DNA of 7,089 nt. Source: Alphaproteobacteria bacterium (GTDB lineage: Bacteria; Pseudomonadota; Alphaproteobacteria; JAEULC01). This document shows positions 20 through 4,610 of this stretch, piece by piece. Position 1 is the stretch's first letter; every line of letters begins with the position of its first letter. A model generated the notes under the pieces. It worked only from the letters and a program-made list of their open reading frames with translations, made no database searches and had not been told where the DNA came from. The stretch lies in NCBI GenBank assembly GCA_020851015.1, contig JADZDN010000380.1, positions 1 through 7,089 of the forward strand. The letters are read 5' to 3'. The translations under genes were made by a program, and so were the position numbers.

Positions 20-391
20 CCCCCCCGCCCCGTGCGGGTGGGGGTTGGGGGGTGGGGTACGCGCGAGGGCGCGCGTCCTCGCGATGCGCCCGCGCGCCGC
101 GAGCGTTCAGAACCCTTGGAAACCACCAAGGCACCAAGACATCAAGAAAGACGGATTGATCCGCCACGACATCACGGACACGGCGTCCGACAGAGCGAGA
201 GGGTTTTTTGCGCGGCGCTTGGCCGCGCGCCCATTCCGACGTGGTGTCCGCGACGTCCTGACGGCGAGTCCCTTTTCCCTTCCTTGGTGTCTTGGTGGTT
301 TCCTCGCGTTCCGCTCGATCCACGCCGCGCGGCCGATCGCGCGAAAACGCGACGCCCCCTCCCCCTACCCCCTCCCGCAAGGGGAGGGGGT
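20..391. repeat. Large imperfect palindrome of nested inverted repeats
   Basis: Four pairs of inverted segments share nearly the same centre, about position 206-219. The outer pair is C/G blocks at 21-57 and 354-390, which align as reverse complements with a minority of mismatches. The middle pair is ACCAAGG-type heptad arrays: 118-150 and 280-303 share the perfect 13-base arm GGAAACCACCAAG, and the left arm carries one extra heptad. The inner pair is GACATCACGGACAC at 168-181 against 244-257, matching at 12 of 14 positions. The innermost is a small hairpin, GCGCGGC 210-216 and GCCGCGC 222-228. GC-rich stretches between outer and middle arms (58-117 and 304-353) also resemble each other in inverted orientation. 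No convincing protein is encoded. It could be a non-autonomous mobile element, a structured RNA, or a stack of smaller palindromic repeats. The symmetry is seen directly; the function is unknown. Confidence 0.7.
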
Positions 392-444
392 ACGGAGAGA
401 CTCGCGCGAGCGCGCTGGGGCCGGCACGGACCGTCTTGAATGTC
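162..444. repeat. Long direct repeat, copy A
   Basis: This segment matches 1369-1665 in the same orientation, with scattered substitutions and short indels, including one extra heptad in copy B's ACCAAG-type block. The shared unit runs from CGCCACGACATCACGG through the inner hairpin, the CCTTGGTGTCTTGGTGG block, the C-rich block and the GCAA-loop hairpin (366-392) to a tail ending GACCGTCTTGAATGTC. After 444 the two copies diverge at once. Copy A has left palindrome arms that copy B lacks. In 445-559, between this repeat and the next hairpin, I see no gene or motif. Confidence 0.85.
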
Positions 445-559
445 ATCGCTGGGCCTGTCCCACGGCTGTCCGGTGGAATGTTTGACGACCTGCACGGAAG
501 CCGACGTCGATTGGGCATTTGATTCAATGCGCGCGATGCCGGGACGCAAACCTTGGGTC

Positions 560-611
560 CCCCCTCCCCCGAGCGCGACGACGCCTGCGGCGTCGCGCTC
601 GGGGGAGGGGG
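560..611. repeat. Long GC hairpin downstream of vapC
   Basis: The arms 560-580 and 591-611 are perfect 21-base reverse complements around a ten-base loop; a shifted register could extend the stem with a three-base bulge. The outer part is C5-T-C5 against G5-A-G5, echoing the C/G blocks of the larger repeats. It sits 19 bases beyond the vapC stop on the minus strand, so it could protect the transcript end or help termination. No T tract follows on either strand, so it is not a classical intrinsic terminator. Confidence 0.6.
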
Positions 612-630
612 CAGAAGGATTCGCTTGCGC

Positions 631-1368: not shown

Positions 1369-1665
1369 CGCCACGACATCACGGACACGGCGCCAGACAA
1401 AGCGAGAGGGATTTTTGCGCGGCGCTTGGCCGCGCGCCCGTTCCGACCTGGTGTCCAGGACGTCCTGACGGCGAGTCCCTTTTCCCTTCCTTGGTGTCTT
1501 GGTGCCTTGGTGGTTTGGTTTCCTCGCGTTCCGCTCGATCCACACCGCACAGCCGATCGCGCGAGAACGCGACGCCCCCTCCCCCTAACCCCCTCCCGCA
1601 AGGGGAGGGGGTACGGAGAGACTCGCGCGAGCGCGCTGGGGCCGGCGCGGACCGTCTTGAACGTC
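1369..1665. repeat. Long direct repeat, copy B
   Basis: This is the second copy of the unit at 162-444, same orientation. It fills almost the whole gap between the vapB upstream region and the HTH antitoxin gene, ending six bases before that gene's TAG stop on the other strand. It keeps the inner arms, an ACCAAG-type block with the extra heptad (1486-1523) and the C-rich block with GCAA-loop hairpin (1575-1612). The left outer and middle arms present at copy A are absent; there the sequence is the vapB upstream region. It may serve as the transcript end of the toxin-antitoxin operon on its right. Confidence 0.85.
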
Positions 1666-2451: not shown

Positions 2452-3378
2452 ATGATCGACATCGCCGGGTCGGGCCGCGGTGCTGGTGCACCCGCGCCCG
2501 CTACCCCGATCGACGCCGTTCCGGCCCGCGGGCCGGTCCCGGCATCCCCGCAGCGCCTCGACGCCGATGCGTCGCGCGCTGCCGAGCCCGCGGAAAGGCC
2601 CGAACGCAGCCGCTCGGCGGGCATGCTGACGGACGCAGAGGTGCTGGAGCGCCTGCGCGCGCTGGCGCGGGCCAAGGGCGGCGCCTTGACGGAGCGCGAC
2701 CTGGCGCGGAACGGCGCGCCGTCGCGCGGCCTGCTGGAGCGGCGCTTCGGGTCGTGGCGCGCCGCGCTGGCGGCGGCCGGCATTCCCGTGCAATCCGCAT
2801 CGCAACGATACACCGACGAAGAATGCTTCGCTAACCTGGCGCGGCTGTGGCGCCACCACGGCCGGGCGCCGCGGGTGGTCGACGCCGACCGCGCGCCGTC
2901 GCGAATCGGGTCGGCGGCCTATCTGCGCCGCGCCGGCACGTGGCGGCGCGCGATCGCCGCCTTCGCGGCCTTCACGGGACGCGATCCGGCGCGGAGCGGG
3001 AGCGCGGCCCGGTCCGACATCGACCCCGCGTTGGGCCTGCCGCCGCGTCCCGGCCGCGATGCCGCGACGCCGGCGGGCACCGAGCCCTCGCCGCGCGCGG
3101 CGCGACGATCCGGCCACACCACGCCCTTGGGCGCGACGCCCTTGGGCGCGACGCCCCTGTCGCTGCGCTTCGCGGTGCTGCAGCGCGACCGCTTCCGCTG
3201 CACCGCCTGCGGCAACAGCCCGGCGGTCGATCCCGCGTGCCGGCTGCACGCCGACCACATCGTGCCGCGATCGGCCGGCGGGCGCACCGAGGCCGCCAAC
3301 CTGCGCAGCCTGTGCGCGGCATGCAACCTGGGGCGCGGCGACCGCGTGGCTTCAGGCGAAACGCCACCGCGGGGCTGA
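2452..3378 (+). CDS. HNH endonuclease with homing-endonuclease-associated repeats
   Basis: This 308-residue protein ends in a clear HNH nuclease domain (about 237-298). It has C250 and C253 in CTACG, HADHIVPRSAGG at 266-277, N283, and C288 and C291 in CAACN; the four cysteines should bind a structural zinc. Two copies of the DNA-binding repeat associated with HNH homing endonucleases precede it. One is at about 58-111, ending RRFGSWRAALAAAGI; the other is at 120-174, ending RRAGTWRRAIAAFAAF. Residues 1-57 are low-complexity Ala/Pro/Arg, and MLTDAEV at residue 58 is an alternative start, but AGGAG supports the ATG at 2452. A PLGAT tandem linker (224-236) joins repeats and nuclease. It is free-standing, not inside an intron or intein that I can see. 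It is convergent with the flavoprotein gene, eight bases apart. Its target is unknown. Confidence 0.88.
   Translation: MIDIAGSGRGAGAPAPATPIDAVPARGPVPASPQRLDADASRAAEPAERPERSRSAGMLTDAEVLERLRALARAKGGALTERDLARNGAPSRGLLERRFGSWRAALAAAGIPVQSASQRYTDEECFANLARLWRHHGRAPRVVDADRAPSRIGSAAYLRRAGTWRRAIAAFAAFTGRDPARSGSAARSDIDPALGLPPRPGRDAATPAGTEPSPRAARRSGHTTPLGATPLGATPLSLRFAVLQRDRFRCTACGNSPAVDPACRLHADHIVPRSAGGRTEAANLRSLCAACNLGRGDRVASGETPPRG
3121..3159 (+). repeat. 15-base tandem repeat in HNH linker
   Basis: The unit ACGCCCTTGGGCGCG occurs twice without mismatch (3121-3135 and 3136-3150), followed by a partial third copy, ACGCCCCTG. It encodes the repeated TPLGA peptide between the DNA-binding repeats and the nuclease. 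Because the unit is a multiple of three, slippage would change linker length without breaking the frame. Confidence 0.85.
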
Positions 3379-3386: not shown

Positions 3387-4610
3387 TCAGCGCGGCGTCG
3401 CCGCCCCCGCGTGCAGCCAGTCCAGCACGCCGCGCCCGGCGGCGGCGCCGGTGGCGAGGCAGCCCTGCAGCAGGTAGCCGCCCGTGGGCGCCTCCCAGTC
3501 CAGCATCTCGCCGGCGGCGAACACGCCGGGGCGCCGGCGCAGCATCAGGTGTTCGTCCAGCTCGCCCAGCGCGATGCCGCCCGCGCTGGAGATCGCGCGC
3601 GCGATGGCGAACGGCGCCGTCAGGCGCAGCGGCAATGCCTTGACCAGCGCCGGCAACGGCTCGGCGGCACCGCCGTGCAGCGCCTCCTGCACCAGCCCGA
3701 CGGCGACGGGATTGAGGCCGACGCGCTTGGCGAGGAAGGTCGAGAGGGACGCCGATCCGCGCGGCGCGGCCAGGCGCAGGGCGAGCGCCGTGGCGTCGAG
3801 GTCCGGGCGCAGGTCCACCCGGACCGTGGCGAGGCCGTCGCGCGCGATCGCGTCGCGCAACAGCGCCGACAGCGCGTAGACCGCGCCGCCCTCGATCCCC
3901 TTCGCGGTGATAACCGCCTCGCCGCGCGCGGTTTCGCCCGCGAAGGACAGCGCGATGCGCTTGAGCGGTGCGCCGGCATGGCGCTGGCGGAACCGATCGG
4001 ACCATTCGACGGCGAAGCCGCAATTCGCCGGGCGCAGCGGCGCCATCGCGACATCCGGCAGCAGCGCGGTCCAGGCGCCGTCGGAACCGAGCCGCGGCCA
4101 GGACGCGCCGCCGAGCGCCAGCACCGTCGCGTCGGCGGCGAAGGGTGGGCGATGCGCGAAGGTCAACGCGCCCGCCTCGTTCCAGCCGGTCCAGCGCGCG
4201 CGCGGCACGAAGCCGACGCCGAGCCCGGCGAGCCGCGCGAGCCAGGCGCGCAGCAACGGGCTCGCCTTCATCGCGCGCGGGAACACGCGGCCGCTGCTGC
4301 CCACGAAGGTGGGCTGGCCCAGCCCCTCGCACCACGCGACCGCGGCCGAGGGCGGAAAGGCGTCGAGATGCGGCCGCATCCATTGCGCGGCCGCGCCGTA
4401 GCGCCGGCAGAAGCGTTCGACCGGCTCGCGGTGCGTCAGGTTCAACCCGCCGCGCCCCGCCATCAGCAGCTTGCGCCCCATGCTCGCCATGCGATCGAAC
4501 ACGGTGACGGGCACGCCCGCGCCGGCGACGACCTCGGCCGCCATCAGCCCGGCCGGGCCGCCGCCGATGACGGCGACGCGGCGGGCGCGGCCGGCTGCGC
4601 TGTCGCGCAT
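3387..4610 (-). CDS. FAD-dependent oxidoreductase, HI0933/BaiN-like
   Basis: This 407-residue cytosolic flavoprotein belongs to the HI0933/BaiN-like NAD(P)/FAD oxidoreductases, in my judgement the TIGR03862 subgroup. The N-terminal Rossmann motif is RVAVIGGGPAGLMAAEV with GGGPAG at 16-21 and the ribose-binding acidic residue D39 in TVFD. The subgroup signature GRKLLMAGRGGLNLTH spans 45-60. A middle insertion domain follows, and the C-terminal FAD motif is FAAGEMLDWEAPTGGYLLQG. Length is normal. The physiological substrate of this subgroup is not known to me. The ATG at 4610 fits the family N-terminus but has no good ribosome-binding site of its own. It lies inside the truncated glutathione S-transferase frame, whose strong site at about 4706-4711 may deliver ribosomes by coupling. 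The frame stays open upstream to about 5294, an artefact of GC content. Confidence 0.9.
   Translation of the reverse strand: MRDSAAGRARRVAVIGGGPAGLMAAEVVAGAGVPVTVFDRMASMGRKLLMAGRGGLNLTHREPVERFCRRYGAAAQWMRPHLDAFPPSAAVAWCEGLGQPTFVGSSGRVFPRAMKASPLLRAWLARLAGLGVGFVPRARWTGWNEAGALTFAHRPPFAADATVLALGGASWPRLGSDGAWTALLPDVAMAPLRPANCGFAVEWSDRFRQRHAGAPLKRIALSFAGETARGEAVITAKGIEGGAVYALSALLRDAIARDGLATVRVDLRPDLDATALALRLAAPRGSASLSTFLAKRVGLNPVAVGLVQEALHGGAAEPLPALVKALPLRLTAPFAIARAISSAGGIALGELDEHLMLRRRPGVFAAGEMLDWEAPTGGYLLQGCLATGAAAGRGVLDWLHAGAATPR

Follow-up and report, generated by a model that had tools for sequence, protein, structure and literature searches.

A layered, mostly intergenic palindrome of Alphaproteobacteria, probably assembled by nesting and then copied whole

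Introduction

How do several unrelated kinds of inverted arm come to lie around nearly one centre? The question is raised by a contig of an Alphaproteobacteria bacterium (assembly GCA_020851015.1, JADZDN010000380.1), whose 7,089 nucleotides, analysed in full and referred to here as the window, begin with a palindrome of concentric inverted repeats. Such an arrangement could be a mobile element of the MITE kind, a structured RNA, one repeat joined head to head, or coincidence. Bacterial MITEs are short, non-coding elements with inverted terminal repeats. We describe the layers of the palindrome, its relatives in other genomes, its placement, and a candidate enzyme for one of its layers. Our reading, to which we give a probability of roughly 60%, is that the feature is a member of a dispersed, non-coding, intergenic, REPIN/MITE-like family of composite palindromes, which probably formed by nesting before being copied as wholes.

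The palindrome of the window

A preliminary description had placed a palindrome of about 370 bases at positions 20 to 391, and this is borne out. In a blastn comparison of the window with itself, positions 22-390 match their own reverse complement at 65.9% over 387 columns (E 3e-16 to 3e-17), and the two halves, aligned to each other, score above all 300 dinucleotide shuffles (z 9.6). Positions 1-450 fold as RNA at -254.7 kcal/mol, against a shuffle mean of -208.6 (z -7.0), and as DNA with a z of -5.7; 0 of 100 shuffles were as good in either case.

From the outside in, the layers are GC-rich hairpin arms, octads of the form (ACCAAGRC)n, an inner ring, and a central hairpin (Table 1). Four kinds of arm around nearly one centre had been described, and the midpoints of the arm pairs agree: 206 for the GC arms, 210.5 for the octads, 215 for the ring, and 219 for the central hairpin, a drift of 13 bp. 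The repeat first given as the heptad ACCAAGG is in fact a unit of 8 bases, ACCAAGRC, with 6 matches in the window at no more than two mismatches against 0.04 expected. The links between octads and GC arms do mirror each other as claimed, but weakly.

Table 1. Positions of the palindrome layers and related elements in the window
Feature	Position	Strand	Remarks
Left outer GC-rich arm, itself a hairpin	22..57	-	outward, divergent; self reverse complement; arm match 46 bits
Left link	58..120	.	weak mirror of right link; 34/1000 and 33/1000 shuffles as good
Left octad run (ACCAAGRC)n	121..150	+	
Left inner-ring arm GCCACGACATCACGGACACG	163..182	+	related sequence ACCACGACGACACCACGGACACGACG in G870
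Central hairpin GCGCGGC-GCTTG-GCCGCGC	210..228	.	
Right inner-ring arm	244..267	-	core arms: 16/1000 shuffles as good
Right octad run	279..300	-	
Right link	301..351	.	within the octad-to-GC-arm match to G870 C17 (L186)
Right outer GC-rich arm	352..395	+	38/38 bases identical to G815 arm
Tail past right GC arm	396..444	+	common to window copy 2
CGTC-REP-like half TGTCATCGCTGGGCCTGT then outer terminal repeat CCCACGGCTGTCCGG	441..475	+	
Second truncated element abutting first copy	443..612	+	outer left segment, then GC hairpin at its end
Second, 5'-truncated copy (copy 2)	1369..1665	+	ring, central hairpin, octads, link, right GC arm, tail

The window holds more than one copy. Copy 2 (1369-1665) is 90.6% identical to positions 162-444; it is without the left GC arm and the left octads, and carries extra octad sequence on the right relative to the first copy. 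Its ring-arm stretches have lost their mirroring (720/1000 shuffles as good), and the match stops 5 bases short of the end of the next gene at 1671. The element that abuts the first copy starts with the REP-like half and terminal repeat of 441-475; its positions 443-569 match 696-818 of locus L191 (contig C242 of genome G870) at 79.5% over 127 columns (E 1e-23); the arms of its GC hairpin, 560-584 and 587-611, are 96% complementary.

Between the two element copies lie a VapC toxin (NF047863) and a VapB antitoxin (NF040493), both over cut-off, at 631-1271 on the minus strand. A RelE/ParE-type toxin (TIGR02683, over cut-off) and a downstream protein of 104 amino acids, perhaps its antitoxin, occupy 1671-2274 on the same strand, and copy 2 sits between this pair and VapBC. 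Palindromic stretches of 22 bases at 1296-1317 and 2340-2361 (91% and 100% self-complementary) precede the VapB and RelE-type genes, where autoregulatory operators would be expected. Further along are an HNH endonuclease with two HNH_repeat stretches (2452-3378, plus strand; PF18780, PF01844) and a flavoprotein (3387-4610) that shares 88% identity with a flavoprotein in a MAG labelled Alphaproteobacteria bacterium; its next relative with an organism name is from Ferrovibrio sp. (76%).

Relatives across genomes

The flavoprotein was searched in 249 genomes from the phylum of the E. coli type strain, and the class of one match was then used for the element: window positions 100-445 were the query against 337 genomes of that class. 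Matches were found in 23 of them, and 38 of the 39 listed places fall on the GC-arm end of the query. An arm-bearing query gave 91, 94, and 48 matches in genomes G621, G803, and G815, counts that can include the same arm twice, once per strand. Four genomes represent the order of G621: G621, G815, G728, and the draft G870. This order is rich in the element, whereas in the order of G612, which holds the best flavoprotein match in the class sample (77%), a single weak match was found across 15 genomes. This could mean that the element crosses orders, or that the host comes from an order outside the sample.

GC arms occur in inverted pairs, many per genome, as do the hairpin repeats of REPINs and BIMEs. 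Among the unselected sites L031-L060, 6 pairs point outward and 2 inward within 250 bp. An earlier impression that the arms nearly always point outward was dropped: the 20 uniform regions behind it had been chosen beforehand for neighbouring matches on opposite strands and were biased. In a larger set, chosen for neighbours on opposite strands, the spacers are mostly unrelated and unmirrored. Among its 22 GC-arm pairs outside the window, two duplicates having been removed, only L031 (5.8) and L150 (2.8) exceed a z of 2, and mirror symmetry was rejected as a rule for all spacers, most GC-arm spacers being unmirrored. L031, in G815, is a GC-arm pair around an octad palindrome, and its RNA fold has a z of -10.3.

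Octads were found at 12 sites in 4 of the 27 genomes searched, and a reversed-pattern control gave 0 matches. One of the sites is a single arm (L108) and one is interrupted by a contig end (L115); several enclose a central hairpin resembling that of the window.

Beyond these genomes, phages and plasmids gave no match to positions 1-450. Plasmid searches with the element modules returned weak, short matches or none, and a ring-arm search of viral contigs returned two matches, neither with the element. A 19-base ring string had one Streptomyces match in the genome collection, judged to be chance, and the triple octad was absent from 296 genomes of the phylum of that match. Read as protein, the palindrome had no relatives (314 candidates, none at E <= 0.001). 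Several IMG/VR contigs from different samples carry inverted octad pairs (L007 and L016, which share one sequence, L010, L014, L015, L018, L019, and L020); other matches of the octad search there, such as L004, L009, and L013, are apparently chance matches in coding sequence.

Full nests, fixed order, and a shared centre

The fullest relatives come from G870. The arrangement GC arm, octads, octads, GC arm is present at five loci (L186, L188, L189, L190, and L193), and three of the four arms at four more (L187, L191, L192, and L194). A ring lies inside the octads in L187-L192 and L194, and is alignable in L186 and L193; in another locus, L195, it lies beside the right octad run only. The central-hairpin position is occupied in other copies by hairpins of altered sequence. 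Three of the full loci, L188, L189, and L190, are 91-94% identical over 377-507 aligned columns, with matches that end inside loci of 1.7-1.8 kb; thus the lineages are fewer than the five full loci. The window itself matches L187 at 71.5% (118-297) and positions 720-838 of L186 at 79% (283-400), and copy 2 (1485-1621) matches 707-838 of L186 at 77%.

The same genome has GC-only pairs (L196-L201, L203, and L204) and octad-only loci (L202 and L205-L208). The proportions are biased, as the G870 search was weighted to multi-layer loci and at most 40 candidates were scored per genome. The left octad run of L191 (888-947) numbers about seven units and the right one two, an expansion such as replication slippage would give.

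Centre and order are constant where layers meet. In all seven loci with both pairs (five in G870, L031 in G815, and the window), the midpoints of the octads and of the GC arms are 1.5-4.5 bp apart, within an available slide of 88-112 bp. Under uniform placement this common centre has an approximate P of 0.0002 for seven loci, or of 0.0016 for five when one of L188-L190 is kept; common descent could also be the source of the shared centre. None of the scored loci had its octad pair outside its GC pair or its ring outside the octads; stray ring-like matches (<=3 mismatches) outside octad pairs are few.

These results bear on coincidence, by which unrelated palindromic repeats would share a centre by chance. 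The preliminary description had argued against it, and had taken arms scattered independently, in random order and spacing, as the sign that would restore it. Independence is partly real: GC pairs without octads and octad palindromes without GC arms both exist, as chance stacking would allow. No other nesting order was found among the loci examined, however; the same nest recurs with the same order and centre in five G870 loci and at L031, its centres at most 4.5 bp apart, and the links are homologous. The G870 copies contradict coincidence, which we regard as extremely improbable. Four-arm copies in the same order were the recurrence that had been sought among genome copies; the constant outer boundaries and target duplications sought with them appear in part, as the outer layers show.

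Outer layers and insertion into REP loops

Outside the GC arms lie two further layers. From the outside in, the fullest copies consist of halves of a CGTC-REP-like hairpin, the terminal repeat CCACGGCTGTCCGG, GC arms, octads, a ACCACGACACCACGGACACGACG-like ring, and the central hairpin. CGTC REPs are small palindromic sequences, found mainly in Alphaproteobacteria, often in inverted pairs and in intergenic positions; the available text of their description reports dimers with spacers and, in three species, dimers that had inserted into palindromes (Di Nocera et al. 2013, PMC3733652). We recognized them by a CGTC or TGTC tag, a stem of 8-9 bp starting with AT, a loop of 4-5 bases, and a CCA tail.

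The outermost layer in G870 has all of these features. The flanks of L195, GTGGATCGCCGGG-ACAAG-CCCGGCGATGACG, comprise a CGTC tag, a 9-bp stem starting with AT, a 5-base loop, and a CCA tail, and so fit the tag, stem, loop, and tail in the available text of that description. The homology of L188 and L190 spans about 505 bp and reaches terminal repeats CCACGGCTGTCCGG, which lie between the halves of such a hairpin. Among the fetched loci, the repeat is present at both ends in L188, L190, and L195, with a near-match at one end in L189. L188, L190, and L195 end in inverted terminal repeats, as MITEs do; the window, which begins 21 bases before the left GC arm, shows the repeat at one end, and its REP-like half, tagged TGTC, occurs at 441 only.

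The bases of the REP loop are doubled around the outer element in L195 (ACAAG) and L190 (CTCGAG). Loop bases on both sides of the terminal repeats are the pattern that insertion into the loop would leave behind. Such target duplications occur in two of the four loci that have both REP halves and a terminal repeat; L188 and L189 are without them. Direct examples of insertion into a REP loop are few, namely L190 and L195; L188, L189, and L190 exemplify dispersal. L195 has a single GC hairpin between its terminal repeats. It was considered as proof of an unfilled centre and not kept as such, since a deletion between arms explains it equally well; L195 may instead be a copy that has collapsed.

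Nesting or one-step inverted duplication

A single event could also give concentric symmetry. If a half-unit of GC arm, link, octads, and ring were duplicated head to head all at once, as a template switch at a replication fork might do, and the halves then diverged, the layers would never have been separate insertions. Equal arm spacing follows directly from such an event, and some of the mirroring agrees with it. Weak mirroring of the links is seen in the window (equalled by 33 of 1000 shuffles) and in the three near-identical copies L188 (26), L189 (30), and L190 (35); the inner regions are mirrored in L188, L191, and L195 (0 of 1000 each), L190 (5), L189 (6), the window (12), and L186 (20). 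Other copies count against it: the links are unmirrored in L186 (338 of 1000), L193 (309), and L031 (234), and the inner regions in L193 (670), L202 (254), and L187 (204), with L194 not clearly mirrored (73). Moreover, many GC pairs have spacers that are neither related nor mirrored, and octad palindromes that lack GC arms are likewise common, so the layers also live apart. We consider a head-to-head origin unlikely, yet still a live rival.

Nesting at or near palindrome centres, followed by copying, is the simplest account. On this account, palindromic units would insert centrally into other palindromes, including the loops of REP hairpins already in place, and would so build up a nest; the composite would then be inherited and copied as a unit. 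We infer that an enzyme supplied in trans may copy or move the element into intergenic spaces, as for a passenger of the REPIN or MITE kind.

Placement, gain, and structure

Elements of this family mostly lie between genes. Predicted genes are avoided by 25 of 26 octad or full elements and by 21 of 25 GC-only pairs, as judged by a rough gene finder based on codon usage and trained on 1620 codons, with L206-L208, L142, L151, and L197 left unscored. Both neighbours are known for 20 octad or full elements, of which 15 lie between codirectional genes, 2 between convergent, and 3 between divergent genes. If transcribed, an element would fold at the end of a gene into one long hairpin; L188, taken with its outer layers, folds as a single long hairpin (RNA z -13.1).

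Presence and absence can be compared at one place. The spacer between rpsA and sppA, assigned by Pfam domains (five S1 domains and Peptidase_S49), holds an octad element in G621 and is about 200 bases long there; in G870, G728, and G815 the element is absent and the spacer is about 40-55 bases. This empty orthologous site concerns one octad element rather than a full nest.

Structure is kept as sequence changes. In the central hairpin, 85% of cells stay paired despite sequence change, and 5 cells have changed on both sides against 1.0 expected (0/500 shuffles as good); counted by pairs, the figures are 3 and 0.9 (7/500). Octad and ring pairs are 95% kept paired, with 12 cells changed on both sides against 5.0 expected (0/500), and a weak signal by pairs (5 against 3.3, 33/500); kinship among the copies weakens both of these controls. 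Covariation of hairpin, octads, and ring, together with mostly intergenic placement, is what a conserved structured RNA would show, its layering being RNA design for a terminator, a 3' stabiliser, or a riboregulator. Against this stand the weak octad and ring signal by pairs, the kinship that remains in the control, the dispersal of the copies, and the frequent absence of layers; gene conversion from arm to arm could also produce covariation, and 4227 Rfam families gave 0 matches on the window at curated thresholds. A structured RNA is improbable as the main explanation. Of the three explanations offered in the preliminary description, the MITE-like one fits best; the RNA has covariation in its favour, and a head-to-head origin stays in contention.

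A candidate enzyme for the GC-arm layer

RAYT transposases, known from REPINs, were considered for this element too. Y1_Tnp is present in 6 of the 23 GC-arm genomes (G870 is not among them), and no GC arm lies near a Y1 transposase among the 14 matches listed. The RAYT was dropped as a mobiliser, a RAYT gene flanked by the GC-arm repeat not being found where tested. Two Y1-transposase genes, L095 in G803 and L094 in G694, have hairpin pairs of their own, unrelated to the GC arms, and are apparent REPtrons.

A different nuclease is found within the arms. At locus L142 of G621, an open frame with a match to DUF559 (PF04480, E 2.6e-38) lies within a GC-arm pair (530-569 and 928-969), the one such place encountered in the order. 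Plasmid DUF559 loci were sampled because of this arrangement: 20 loci were drawn from 40 listed of 43 records with a match, and the identity of the DUF559 gene was checked for six. An inverted pair spans the gene in 11 of the 20 loci (11 of 16 distinct ones), against 0 of 568 control windows, which were overlapping windows from 50-kb stretches of four sampled alphaproteobacterial plasmids and not small genes.

The two parts of the sample behave differently. Among the first 12 loci, all alphaproteobacterial, a strong palindrome ends just upstream of the DUF559 match in 11 (E <= 1e-9), and an inverted pair spans the gene in 5. As five of the 12 are one Azospirillum locus, the distinct loci number 8; the upstream palindrome is present in 7 of these and the pair in 5. 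Control windows passed the upstream test in 2 of 568 cases at 1e-9 and 6 of 568 at 1e-7, all from a Methylobacterium stretch; at a loose threshold of 1e-3, 23 of 284 had a palindrome. Among the next 8 loci, the pair is present in 6, namely three of three from Deinococcus and three of three from Sphingomonadales, and the upstream test is positive in 1 (L238, at 1e-7 only); the two cyanobacterial loci have no palindromes.

Some of these palindromes resemble the GC arms. Among the first 12 loci, GC-arm queries matched those of L222 (63.5 bits), L215 (47.3), L224 (44.6), and L216 (41.0); by blastn, L221, L223, and L226 gave weak matches or none, the alphaproteobacterial L223 and L226 giving none. 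Three DUF559 genes lie between operon-like neighbours: sufB/sufC, transhydrogenase subunits, and paaD/paaZ. In Alphaproteobacteria and Deinococcus, named plasmids of the sample (L215-L226 and L231-L238) carry DUF559 genes beside or within palindromes, some apparently inserted inside operons. No DUF559 relative was confirmed in viral contigs.

As the gene is often bracketed by the same type of palindrome, DUF559 is a candidate enzyme, and the GC-arm layer may be moved by this Vsr-like, PD-(D/E)XK nuclease. The available portion of a report on a Caulobacter DUF559 protein describes a Vsr-like endonuclease of the PD-(D/E)XK type with a link to the SOS response (PMC12907096). By analogy, DUF559 is a plausible counterpart of the RAYT and a candidate mobiliser of the GC-arm layer. 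Judged mainly by titles and the opening lines of abstracts, no open paper was found that joins DUF559 to palindromic repeats.

Relation to known repeat systems

Parts of the element resemble known repeats. The published description of CGTC REPs, in its available text, found no dedicated transposase for them, and its main text, as far as available, leaves DUF559 unmentioned (PMC3733652). Compared with that text, the GC arms, octads, and ring differ in sequence and lie within the REP instead of forming it, and a stack of five or six layers is not told there. REPINs and BIMEs with their RAYT, as far as they are covered in the available text of PMC3116915 and PMC2817692, are alike in having two inverted hairpins with a spacer, many copies, and non-coding placement; a nuclease gene flanked by its own hairpin type would be the RAYT analogue here. 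The element differs from them in being larger and multi-layered, and the flanked gene, DUF559, has a different nuclease fold. Insertion sequences that target REPs are a precedent for insertion into a REP (Tobes and Pareja 2006, PMC1525189, available text), the inserted DNA here being a non-coding palindrome.

The likeness to MITEs is also partial. The element is short and non-coding, has terminal inverted repeats, and occurs in near-identical copies with unrelated flanks; it differs in that target duplications occur at only 2 of 4 loci and that its parent element is a candidate only. The octad and GC-arm strings were absent from the relevant open papers searched, and the layered architecture was not found in the REP and REPIN literature as represented by titles and the opening lines of abstracts. 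A GC-arm pair or an octad palindrome alone is REP- or REPIN-like; it is the stack that is new.

Implications

REP-type repeats are among the commonest non-coding DNA of bacteria, and the formation of larger composites from them is little understood. Here the same four to six layers occur in a fixed order, with some copies missing layers, and so provide a series in which growth by insertion at the centre can be tested. A wider proposal, which we put forward tentatively and would not yet bet on, is that Vsr-like nucleases of the DUF559 family spread GC-rich hairpin pairs and constitute a second REP-like mobile system beside RAYT/REPIN. Arm-DUF559-arm units would be autonomous and empty pairs their passengers; palindromes would grow from the centre and then spread as an ordered unit. 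If it is true that DUF559 moves the GC arms, a widespread protein family would gain a role, and REP-like repeats would gain an enzyme.
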